From Mariprofundaceae bacterium (GTDB lineage: Bacteria > Pseudomonadota > Zetaproteobacteria > Mariprofundales > Mariprofundaceae), in NCBI GenBank assembly GCA_021772895.1, contig JAJFLC010000012.1, forward strand, positions 186,001-250,000: DNA of 64,000 nt, in the 5' to 3' direction. The notes under the pieces were generated by a model. The model made no database searches, had not been told where the DNA came from, and saw nothing but the letters and a program-made list of their open reading frames with translations. Positions 51,559 to 54,376 of the stretch are shown here, in pieces. Position 1 is the stretch's first letter; the number at the start of each line of letters is the position of its first letter. The translations under genes and the position numbers were made by a program.

Positions 51559-51589
51559 AGTGGGTATCCCTGTGTTAGATGTTATGCGA

Positions 51590-51605
51590 AACCAGCGCGC
51601 TGGTT
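51590..51605. repeat. Perfect 16-bp palindrome upstream of dbpA
   Basis: AACCAGCGCGCTGGTT is a perfect palindrome 32 bases upstream of the dbpA start. Could be a regulator site or a cruciform-forming sequence; no family assigned. Confidence 0.5.
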
Positions 51606-51624
51606 CACTACATCAGCCGAATTT

Positions 51625-51831
51625 TAGTGTTTTGCATGCATAAAAGAAATGGGCATTGTTTTGAAAGTGATTTACCGTGTAGTAAAGTGGCAGTCGTATG
51701 AATCGTCTAAATGCTTTGGCCTATGCTTTATCATTCAGAGATGACTTTTTTCTTCGTTTGACTTTTAATATCCAATATCAAGGAAATTAAGGGCGTATAT
51801 AGGAGGGCAATACATGGAAAATCAAGTCATG
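51625..51831 (+). repeat. 207-bp direct repeat, copy 1 (upstream of methyltransferase)
   Basis: Matches 52866-53072 with 8 differences in 207 bases (about 96%, counted by eye). It contains a non-coding leader, a strong ribosome site (AGGAGGG) and the first six codons of the membrane-protein gene at 53055. In this copy the reading frame becomes MENQVMLLLS and stops at 51843. It marks a partial duplication of that gene's 5' end. Confidence 0.9.
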
Positions 51832-51882
51832 CTATTACTTAGTTAGGCACACACTCAAATCCGTTTTATTTTGGGGAATGGC

Positions 51883-52602
51883 ATGTCAGCGAAGACGGTT
51901 AGTGAAGAGGCAGCTCAAACAGTATCCCCTCGCCAGTGGGTCCGATTAGTTGTGGTGCATCTCCTTATCCCGTTGATTTTATTGATATGCGGTTGGGATA
52001 TCGGTTGGTGGCAGGCGTGGGCCTATTCCCTGCTGATCTTAGCCGCTGGTATTGGGGGACGTATATGGGCGGAACAGCGACACCCTGGATTGACGGCCGA
52101 ACGACAAAATATTGAAAATATCCAAAACGCAAAAGCCTGGGATAAAGTGCTTGCTCCTCTGATGGCAGTGAGTGTCAGTTTTCCTATGGTTATTGTGGCA
52201 GGGCTGGACCGTCGCTATAACTGGTCTCCCGAATTTCCGCTATGGTTAAGTGTAATTGGATTTATGTTGATCGCGTTCGGTTACGCTTTCGCTGCATGGG
52301 CATTGGCAGAGAACCGTTTTTTCTCCAGCGTGGTACGTATTCAGACGGAACGAGGGCATGTGGTGTGTGATACCGGCCCGTACCGATTTGTTCGGCATCC
52401 GGGTTATGCCGGAATTATTCTTCCACTGTTCGGTATTGCTCTTGCGTTGGGCTCGGTATGGACACTGATACCTGCGGCGATGGCAACAATCATTGCGGTA
52501 ATTAGAACAGGACTTGAAGACCAGACTTTACAGGAAGAGTTGCCGGGCTATCGAGACTATGCACGACGCGTGCGCTATCGGTTGATTCCTAGGATATACT
52601 GA
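51883..52602 (+). CDS. Isoprenylcysteine carboxyl methyltransferase (ICMT)-like membrane protein
   Basis: A 239-residue inner-membrane protein with about five helices. The C-terminal SAM-binding block of ICMT/phospholipid methyltransferase families is visible: RIQTERGHVVCDTGPYRFVR, HPGYAGIILPLFGIALALGS, then EDQTLQEELPGYRDYARRVR. Bacterial members methylate unknown substrates. ATG 51883 has GGGGA 5 bases upstream; a TTG at 51871 is an alternative. The gene is bracketed by the 207-bp direct repeat, so it was probably inserted together with the flanking element. Confidence 0.82.
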   Translation: MSAKTVSEEAAQTVSPRQWVRLVVVHLLIPLILLICGWDIGWWQAWAYSLLILAAGIGGRIWAEQRHPGLTAERQNIENIQNAKAWDKVLAPLMAVSVSFPMVIVAGLDRRYNWSPEFPLWLSVIGFMLIAFGYAFAAWALAENRFFSSVVRIQTERGHVVCDTGPYRFVRHPGYAGIILPLFGIALALGSVWTLIPAAMATIIAVIRTGLEDQTLQEELPGYRDYARRVRYRLIPRIY

Positions 52603-52627
52603 GAGACCTGAGTGGTGGGTGTCCAGA

Positions 52628-52864
52628 ATCAATAGGGTCAGACTCACTGCTGTTCCACATAAGCATACCCGCCATGCTCGGCTTGGTCGGGTATCCAATA
52701 AAACGTTGTGAAGATCTAGGTCTGTGTCTTCTCGGGAATGCCGAGGAGGAATAGACAGAATTCATGTCCAATGAAACCGGATATGAAGCAACTTGTTGTT
52801 TCGTAACGTTCTCAAGCATCTATCAATCATTTTATGGGACAGCAGTGAGTCTGACTCTATTGAT
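52628..52864. mobile_element. 237-bp MITE-like element with 29-bp inverted ends
   Basis: The two ends, 52628-52656 and 52836-52864, are inverted repeats matching at 27 of 29 positions (starting ATCAATAGGGTCAGACTC). The interior has no recognisable transposase; a 76-codon minus-strand frame (52589-52819) is not convincing. The TCAATAGGGTCAGACTC core recurs at 53562, and is reminiscent of ends associated with REP-type (Y1) transposases, which is inference. Non-autonomous element mobilised in trans is the best reading. Confidence 0.7.
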
Positions 52865-52865
52865 C

Positions 52866-53072
52866 TAGTGTTTTGCATGCATAAAAGAAATGGGCATTGT
52901 TTTGAAAGTGATTTACCGTGTAGCAAAGTGGCAGTCGTATGAATCGTCTAAATGCTTTGGTCGATGCTTTATCATTCAGAGATGACTTTTTCTTTCGTTT
53001 GGCTTTTAATATCCAATATCAAGGAAAGTAAGGGCGTATATAGGAGGGTAATACATGGAAAATCAAGTCATG
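52866..53072 (+). repeat. 207-bp direct repeat, copy 2 (intact gene leader)
   Basis: Second copy of the repeat at 51625-51831. Here the leader runs directly into the intact gene starting at 53055. It begins one base after the end of the MITE-like element, so the boundaries of duplication and element coincide. Confidence 0.9.
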
Positions 53073-53441
53073 ACCCTATTTATAATTATCTTTGGCGCAC
53101 TGACTTGTTTGGCCGGAATAGTGATTTTAGTTAATCCGGAAGTAATATTTGGTTTTTTACGAAAAAATATAGACAAGATCGAGTTACATATATTAGCTGT
53201 AGTAATTAGACTAGTGCTAGGTGTATTCCTTATATACCAATCAGGTGTATCTAGATACCCTTTTGTAATTGAAATTATTGGTTGGCTATCAATAGTCGCG
53301 GCAGTTTTCTTGGCTATAATAGGACGCAATAAATTTAGCAAGCTAATGTCCTGGGCGCTGTCGAATGTAAAAACCTTGGGTCGCGTTGGTGGCGTCATTA
53401 CAACGGCTTTTGGTGCATTTCTAATACATGCATTTGTTTAA
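53055..53441 (+). CDS. Small four-helix membrane protein, integron-cassette-like
   Basis: A 128-residue protein with four predicted membrane helices (e.g. LFIIIFGALTCLAGIVILVN, LSIVAAVFLAIIGRN, VGGVITTAFGAFLIHAFV). No family recognised with certainty. AGGAGGG stands 6 bases before the ATG. Its AT-rich composition and the attC site 15 bases downstream of its stop make it look like an integron gene cassette. Confidence 0.72.
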   Translation: MENQVMTLFIIIFGALTCLAGIVILVNPEVIFGFLRKNIDKIELHILAVVIRLVLGVFLIYQSGVSRYPFVIEIIGWLSIVAAVFLAIIGRNKFSKLMSWALSNVKTLGRVGGVITTAFGAFLIHAFV

Positions 53442-53455
53442 CAGAGGTGGCAATA

Positions 53456-53522
53456 ACATAACAAAGCAATTCAACACGGACGCCGCAAAAAGACGCGGCA
53501 CCGGTTCATTGCGACGTTAGCC
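53456..53522 (+). other. Integron attC recombination site
   Basis: The outer boxes are ACATAAC (53456-53462, TAAC pairs with GTTA) and GTTAGCC (53516-53522, perfect GTTRRRY). Three bases inward on each side, GCAAT (53466-53470) pairs with ATTGC (53508-53512). Inside, AAC/GTT with an unpaired A and GCCGC/GCGGC complete the imperfect hairpin. Size, box order and asymmetry match attC sites of gene cassettes. No integrase gene is in the window. Confidence 0.82.
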
Positions 53523-53539
53523 GTAAAAAGGAGGTATCA

Positions 53540-53585
53540 AATCAATAGAAATCAATAGAATCAATAGGGTCAGACTCCATTGATT
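53540..53585. repeat. ATCAATAG tandem units and REP-like palindrome
   Basis: ATCAATAG occurs three times in a row (53541, 53551, 53560). The last starts the imperfect palindrome AATCAATAGGGTCAGACTCC-ATTGATT (53559-53585). It shares the first 18 bases of the inverted ends of the element at 52628-52864. It may be a solo end of the same element family or a REP sequence. Confidence 0.65.
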
Positions 53586-53700
53586 CTGATGTTTATTAAC
53601 AAATGATGATCTGGAGCACTTTAAAAAACAATTCAATCAGAACTATTGGGTAAATAAAGCAGAAGATTAAGAATATCTGATAGTAAGAAATGGAGTGTCT

Positions 53701-54348
53701 ATGCTCACAAACAATGAAGATTTGCATGTATCACAGGTGACCGGGGAAAAAGAACTGACGCGCATGCTGGCAAAGTTGCGCTTGCGCAGCGATCTTGAAG
53801 CGAATGCAAAAGGTGTGACAGAAGATATCGTTGATGGTTTTTCGGATGCTGAGGTTTCAGCACTGCCTGAATCAACCATTGTGCATATTGTTGATGCCTA
53901 TTTCATTCTGGAAAAAAAAGGTGTGCCTGATGAGGAAATTTTCAAAAAAATTGACCTGCAACGATCATTAATTGGTGAGAACACGACCGTTCCCGCTGAT
54001 ATAAACCTGAGTCAATACATCAAATGGCGTCTCAAAGTCGAGTTTCCGCAGATTACTTCGCTGGAAGAGATGATTGTGGATATGGAGATTCTTTATGCCG
54101 TTAAATGGTTCTCCAGAACATCAAAGCGTACACGTGACTGGGCAGATGCCGATGCATTTGCTGCTAAGGCGGTTTCTGCCACACGGGAAAAACATCAGAA
54201 TGCCCAAGTTATGATTGAGGCCAAAGAAACGCTTGTGAAAGCTTCCAGCGGAAAGTGGAAATACCTTATTGCAGGCTTGGTGATTGTGCTTGCTGTGGGT
54301 GCAGTGGTTTGTTGGGCCTTTTTCATGGATGGTCTAAAGCTGTTCTAA
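53701..54348 (+). CDS. Hypothetical tail-anchored protein
   Basis: A 215-residue protein, mostly soluble and helical, with one membrane helix at the extreme C-terminus (YLIAGLVIVLAVGAVVCWAF, residues ~188-207), implying a cytoplasmic body anchored at the inner membrane. GGAG stands 6 bases before the ATG at 53701. Contains FSDAEVSALPESTIVHIVDA and FPQITSLEEMIVDMEILYAV. I do not recognise the family. It starts ~110 bases after the REP-like palindrome. Confidence 0.65.
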   Translation: MLTNNEDLHVSQVTGEKELTRMLAKLRLRSDLEANAKGVTEDIVDGFSDAEVSALPESTIVHIVDAYFILEKKGVPDEEIFKKIDLQRSLIGENTTVPADINLSQYIKWRLKVEFPQITSLEEMIVDMEILYAVKWFSRTSKRTRDWADADAFAAKAVSATREKHQNAQVMIEAKETLVKASSGKWKYLIAGLVIVLAVGAVVCWAFFMDGLKLF

Positions 54349-54376
54349 TCATTGGATGGCGATTTTCAGTTTGAAA

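Follow-up and report, generated by a model that had tools for sequence, protein, structure and literature searches.

The window (the whole 64 kb stretch of DNA analysed here, C4:186001-250000 of genome G000, with C-labels for contigs and G-labels for genomes of the family) contains an integrase-less integron remnant in the order attI_a, methyltransferase gene, MITE, attI_b/ORF128 fusion and attC. It is one of several islands in this genome that are headed by a recognisable attI module, and no integron integrase gene (intI) was found in the assembly. With a probability of approximately 0.6, the islands descend from integron platforms at several chromosomal sites, which captured cassettes and later lost intI. 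A single genome with numerous scattered attI heads and no intI looks new.

The insertion between dbpA and DUF1456

The remnant lies in extra DNA between dbpA and DUF1456 (Table 1). These genes are co-oriented neighbours in four relatives (G006, G010, G019 and G020) and are 2.8 kb apart in the window; dbpA of G002 has a different neighbour (carbonic anhydrase), and no empty site was obtained from that genome. The edges in the window carry G^TT-like junctions (CCTGTG/TTAGATG), but the intergenic DNA of the relatives is too diverged for a claim.

Table 1. Features of the insertion, in window coordinates.
Feature	Position	Strand	Details
Extra DNA between dbpA and DUF1456	51559-54376		~2.8 kb; junction positions approximate
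First 207-nt segment, reaching from upstream into attI_a	51625-51831	+	
attI_a module	51750-51848	+	Profile R1 E=4.0e-25; core GTTAGGC 51842-51848
attI_a leader	51802-51846	+	SD GGAG 51802-51805, 8 nt, ATG 51814, stop TAG 51844-51846 within core
PEMT/ICMT-type membrane methyltransferase, first cassette gene	51871-52602	+	Pfam PF04191 E=1.5e-11
MITE-like element between methyltransferase gene and attI_b	52625-52864	+	35-nt inverted ends
Second 207-nt segment (promoter side and attI_b)	52866-53072	+	96% identity to 51625-51831
attI_b, attI part of second copy	52981-53072	+	Profile R1 E=6.4e-21; crossover core lost
ORF128, cassette gene, family without known match	53055-53441	+	First six codons MENQVM = attI leader, in-frame fusion
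attC of ORF128 cassette	53456-53522	+	R3 covariance match and DNA fold
Lone MITE end 3' of attC	53557-53577	+	21/21 nt identical to 52625-52645
ORF217, last gene of insertion	53695-54348	+	Candidate cassette gene; no attC 3' of gene

Within the insertion, the first 207-nt segment is followed by the methyltransferase gene, the MITE-like element, the second 207-nt segment, ORF128, attC, the lone MITE end and ORF217. The attI module comprises approximately 95 nt, forms the last part of the 207-nt segment and recurs elsewhere in the genome. A weak sigma-70-like promoter (51661-51688) is present in the first segment, where promoter matches occur at chance number, and no promoter stands out. The methyltransferase cassette has no recognisable attC. 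The arms of the MITE-like element (52628-52662 and 52830-52864) are 89% complementary, and the element may take part in truncating integrons.

The gene upstream of the attC had been described from the letters alone as small, AT-rich and of unknown family, and this description holds: ORF128 encodes 128 aa, has a GC content of 36.4% (vs 45.6% for the window) and has no match in Pfam, NCBIfam or PADLOC. No relatives of ORF128 were found in plasmids or viral contigs. Homologues of ORF217 were found in G019 and G010 only, at other loci. MITE-like ends (AATCAATAGGGTCAGACTC) occur in the window (52625-52864 and 53557-53577), at L014 9856 and at L027 about 700-760, and related MITE ends adjoin attI copies in the window, at C1 and in G019. 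A 16-bp palindrome (AACCAGCGCGCTGGTT) is situated at 51588-51603, between dbpA and the 207-nt segment.

Scattered attI modules and the missing integrase

The attI module was searched for with a sequence profile (R1) over 74 genomes of the family, and an integron integrase model was run on the same genomes. The genome under study carries 11 modules at E<2e-7 and a twelfth at C10:31845 (E=0.004), which has 155 nt in common with the copy at C7:318742 (E=3.5e-29). A further match at C21:97825 (E=0.006) is weak and was left out of the count. The total of at least 12 modules at no fewer than 11 chromosomal sites has to be taken as a minimum, since not all candidates were scored; by the R1 search it is the highest module copy number in the family, the next being 7. 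The copies form two subfamilies, and the GTTA core is gone from attI_b and several other modules. A recognisable attC is present at 6 of the 11 islands and absent at the other five, and attC-like sites around the modules are found at 0.170 per kb downstream vs 0.061 per kb upstream. The choice between a solitary cassette and a classic attC cluster, as offered by the sequence-only reading, falls on neither: the locus is one of approximately 12 scattered attI-led islands, most of which have no attC or one.

Integron cassettes typically carry many small genes of unknown function. The genes behind the modules of this genome are small and mostly without a Pfam match, the exceptions being KAP NTPase, RsgA-like, OmdA, AlkZ-like, DUF998, DUF2157 and PEMT. 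The module at C7:1604 heads the KAP NTPase gene (L115 232-1593, minus strand), whose PADLOC match is PDC-S20, a candidate defence family (E=1e-101). A short repeat with TGGGGACATAAT ends is present twice within the cassette array at C7:113 kb (L016 8537 and 9318).

No intI gene, the mark of a complete integron, was detected in the 2.45 Mb assembly (a 24-contig draft, 98.5% complete), where TIGR02249 remained below its cut-off throughout; the earlier remark that no integrase was in view extends to the whole assembly. The intI side was assembled for all 12 modules, and their flanks contain no intI gene. Three of the 12 retain an N-terminal intI stub in canonical position and orientation, namely 33 aa at C7:113 kb (E=3e-9), 18 aa at C7:90.6 kb (E=4e-5) and a weak stub of 23 aa at C1:109.7 kb (E=0.018). 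Stubs or pseudogenes of intI also occur in the relatives G010, G025 and G007, and several relatives carry two or three intI genes. Platform relocation followed by intI loss is supported by these stubs and by the multiple intI genes of relatives. No integron integrase was found above the cut-off in three genus-mates (incomplete MAGs). In G010, an intI pseudogene with stop codons (L093 4364-5252, on C5 at about 150 kb) is accompanied by an intact intI at C5:249 kb.

On the favoured reading, cassettes would have been taken up by IntI at the attI G^TT, platforms would have come to occupy several chromosomal sites, with the window locus as one of at least 11 islands, and intI would have been lost afterwards. 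The cassettes would then be frozen, given that no recognisable integrase is left, yet possibly still expressed, and translation of the first gene would start at the attI leader or be coupled through it. A second empty site was found on C5, where the gap between a LexA-like gene and polA measures 99 bp in genus-mate G003 vs 859 bp here; no empty site was obtained for the C10 copy, because genus-mates do not share its argJ/mutT/xerC neighbourhood. Several findings weigh against platform loss: most modules have no intI stub, many begin sharply at the left edge, which fits movement without intI equally well, the assembly is a draft, and 5 of the 11 sites lack a recognisable attC.

The alternative that survives best, which we nevertheless consider rather unlikely, is that the attI module spreads alone. 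The unit would consist of attI and one or a few cassettes without intI, in many cases together with a short segment of the promoter side, and most loci would never have had an integrase gene. A possible route is the insertion of an attI-bearing circle by IntI in trans at attI, attC or a secondary G^TT (attG), and duplication is another; IntI1 excises attI-ORF-attI units (PMC12901181). Such movement is consistent with the C5 module, which begins ~25 nt past the LexA-like stop codon without a trace of intI at a gap of only 99 bp in G003, and with the non-intI upstream sequence held in common by the tandem window copies (115 nt) and by the C7:318.7 kb and C10 copies (~65 nt). Furthermore, numerous copies in the relatives begin just as sharply on the left, and the DNA upstream of them is unrelated. 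However, canonical intI stubs are kept at 3/12 modules and no second crossover site was identified. In addition, the start region of intI falls at this left edge, so that deletion of intI would look alike and the two routes of spread are inseparable by the present data.

It is possible, on a tentative reading, that attI with its SD and mini-ORF is a dispersing element which moves with one or a few cassettes, without intI, to many sites, and that it is kept after the loss of intI because it offers captured genes a translation start. If so, the integron would multiply its entry and expression site instead of lengthening one array.

It is improbable that an active integron integrase resides in the cell on an unassembled plasmid or in the missing 1-2% of the genome and serves live arrays in trans. 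A 24-contig draft of 98.5% completeness leaves room for such a gene, and CALINs (see below) can be mobilised in trans (PMC12444791), but neither the assembly nor the three genus-mates (incomplete MAGs) yielded an integrase above the cut-off. In addition, the GTTA cores lost from attI_b and several modules, together with the first cassette that lacks a recognisable attC, point to disuse.

The attI module and its leader

In all 16 of the cases listed (16 genomes), the module stands 67-85 bp upstream of an intact intI and points away from it, in divergent orientation. These genomes belong to the Mariprofundaceae/Zetaproteobacteria, and those with names include Mariprofundus and Ghiorsea. The module family thus occupies the position of attI, between intI and the first cassette, while the window copy is without intI. 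The GTTAGGC that closes attI_a, where the module adjoins the first cassette, supplies the expected GTT core. As a 7-mer it occurs in the window at chance level (3 seen vs 4.5 expected), and its significance derives from the attI module that it terminates rather than from its frequency. This GTTAGGC is the crossover core of attI and not that of another attC, and crossover in attI_a is expected at 51842^51843. It had been proposed from the sequence as a possible further cassette boundary; a boundary does precede the methyltransferase gene, but its core belongs to attI.

The mini-ORF of attI_a encodes MENQVMLLLS, and its TAG stop codon belongs to the GTTAGGC core. This layout matches that of ORF-11 in attI1 (PMC8876359), which likewise has GGAG 8 nt before the ATG, a mini-ORF of ~10 codons that runs into the core and a TAG derived from GTTRRRY; the SD, the start codon and a stop within the core are all present in attI_a. 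Unlike ORF-11, the module has another sequence and belongs to another family, and in its subfamily B the mini-ORF starts 2 nt earlier (11 codons). An alignment of the genome's own copies revealed the SD and start codon as the best-conserved part of the module. In attI_b, the module ends at the second ATG of the leader and runs on in frame as ORF128, with the core absent, and thus the leader now starts a cassette gene. By analogy with ORF-11 in class 1 integrons, the attI leader probably still helps to translate the first gene.

The module heads single genes without a recognisable attC at several loci, which, along with the conservation of its SD and start codon, would accord with an element that acts as promoter or translation leader, not as a recombination site, and that stands beside intI only secondarily. 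This is very improbable given the fixed 67-85 bp spacing from intI across 16 genomes and the GTT cassette junction at which the module ends, with attC sites downstream. Moreover, the leader was rejected as a structured RNA, having no stable fold (z=-0.58), and the module has no Rfam match.

The order attI_a, methyltransferase, attI_b places an attI part 3' of an ORF, as in the delta-attI-type cassettes of class 1 and class 2 (PMC12901181). What those cassettes retain of attI is its 3' core (usually 14-18 nt), whereas attI_b retains the 5' part and lacks a GTT core after the ORF. The attI-ORF-attI arrangement is also found in G019 and G081 (Mariprofundus ferrooxydans PV-1), at L090 2208-3112 and L081 5178-7636. 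Three attI copies (L014 9690, L118 6830 and L053 655) are followed by a similar short TTCTTCCGCTTAACGCGGGCATTAG-like hairpin and no ordinary cassette start.

The attC site and known integrase-less arrays

The 67-bp site that closes the ORF128 cassette is a true attC of the integron type, directly 3' of the gene in a unit that starts at attI_b, with attI_a further upstream. Its boxes appear in the order ACATAAC (R''), GCAAT, ATTGC and GTTAGCC (R'), the last being one base off GTTRRRY. R'' and R' pair as TAAC/GTTA, and the spacer, the L''/L' stem and the asymmetric bottom-strand hairpin by which attC sites are recognised are all present. Folded as DNA (-14.1 kcal/mol, z=-3.46), the bottom strand has a core stem and a 5-bp L stem, with an internal loop and an asymmetric inner hairpin. 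The attC architecture described in the sequence-only reading was recovered, as was the bottom-strand fold that it proposed as a check. In our own scan, the site ranked first by folding among the attC candidates of the window and 11th by a motif-only score, which is of no use by itself. Markov shuffles of 64 kb are expected to yield approximately one site of equal stability by chance, and thus fold and motif alone cannot settle attC identity.

A covariance model (R3) was built from seven attC sites, none of them from the window; these were attC-like sites downstream of attI modules, from relatives and from other loci of the same genome. R3 is based on alignment A7, the MAFFT alignments A4-A6 having been set aside because they misaligned R'' or the inner loop. 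Against both strands of the window at E<=10, R3 produced a single match, the plus-strand site at 53456-53522 (20.8 bits, E=0.014, with rough calibration of the E-values). Against 217 kb of the genome it produced seven matches, all of them inside attI-led arrays, at 6 of the 11 islands. The window site, C5:37320 and C1:109164 were absent from the training set and all were matched. An earlier model that included the window site (R2) found two new sites, C7:112586 and C7:319265, both within attI-led arrays. Covariation in alignment A3 is biased towards structure because the sites were picked partly by folding.

The 5' half of the window attC is similar to an attC of G019, a relative that bears intI. 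The site stands above chance on account of the R3 match, the attI-headed ORF within an insertion with empty sites in relatives, and the likeness to G019. A chance hairpin, as expected about once per 64 kb of shuffled sequence at this stability, is extremely improbable, since a model trained outside the window lands on exactly this site, which lies behind an attI-headed ORF within an insertion and has a similar counterpart in a relative with intI. The sequence-only reading had also staked its case on further attC or intI in the genome or relatives: further attC sites, as well as attI sites, are present at other places in the genome, and relatives carry intI.

Clusters of attC sites without an integron integrase (CALINs) have been proposed to be degraded integrons (PMC9024848). 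The window locus is like a CALIN in having attC cassettes with no intI nearby, but it has a recognisable attI at its head, is one of 11 such islands in one genome and holds a single attC, where the CALIN definition of IntegronFinder 2 calls for at least two (PMC9024848). Xanthomonas has chromosomal integrons with inactivated intI and additional CALINs at several loci off the platform (PMC12444791), and Treponema phagedenis has attC sites without intI (PMC3607928). The present genome is similar to both in that attC cassettes were kept and the integrase was lost in the lineage, which is probable for the present case. However, one ancestral platform is described there (ilvD in Xanthomonas), whereas attI itself is found here at 11 chromosomal sites.

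The loss of intI and integrase-less cassette arrays are already known (PMC12444791, PMC3607928, PMC9024848), as are attI fragments in cassettes (PMC12901181). Integrons have been described as carrying a single attI next to intI, and descriptions of attI outside class 1 are poor (PMC3607928, PMC9024848). In the open-access literature searched, the coverage of which was incomplete, neither integrons in Mariprofundus nor numerous scattered attI sites within one genome were found to be described. IntegronFinder does not search for attI outside class 1 and by default requires at least two attC for a CALIN (PMC9024848); with no or one recognisable attC per island, most islands would be missed by attC-based surveys. 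An attI family that is recognisable by sequence, with up to a dozen scattered copies, makes platform relocation testable, along with the route of intI loss and the persistence of attI as an expression leader. The module is also found on MAG contigs labelled Gammaproteobacteria and Flavobacteriales (L095, L103 and L110), through possible mis-binning or transfer.
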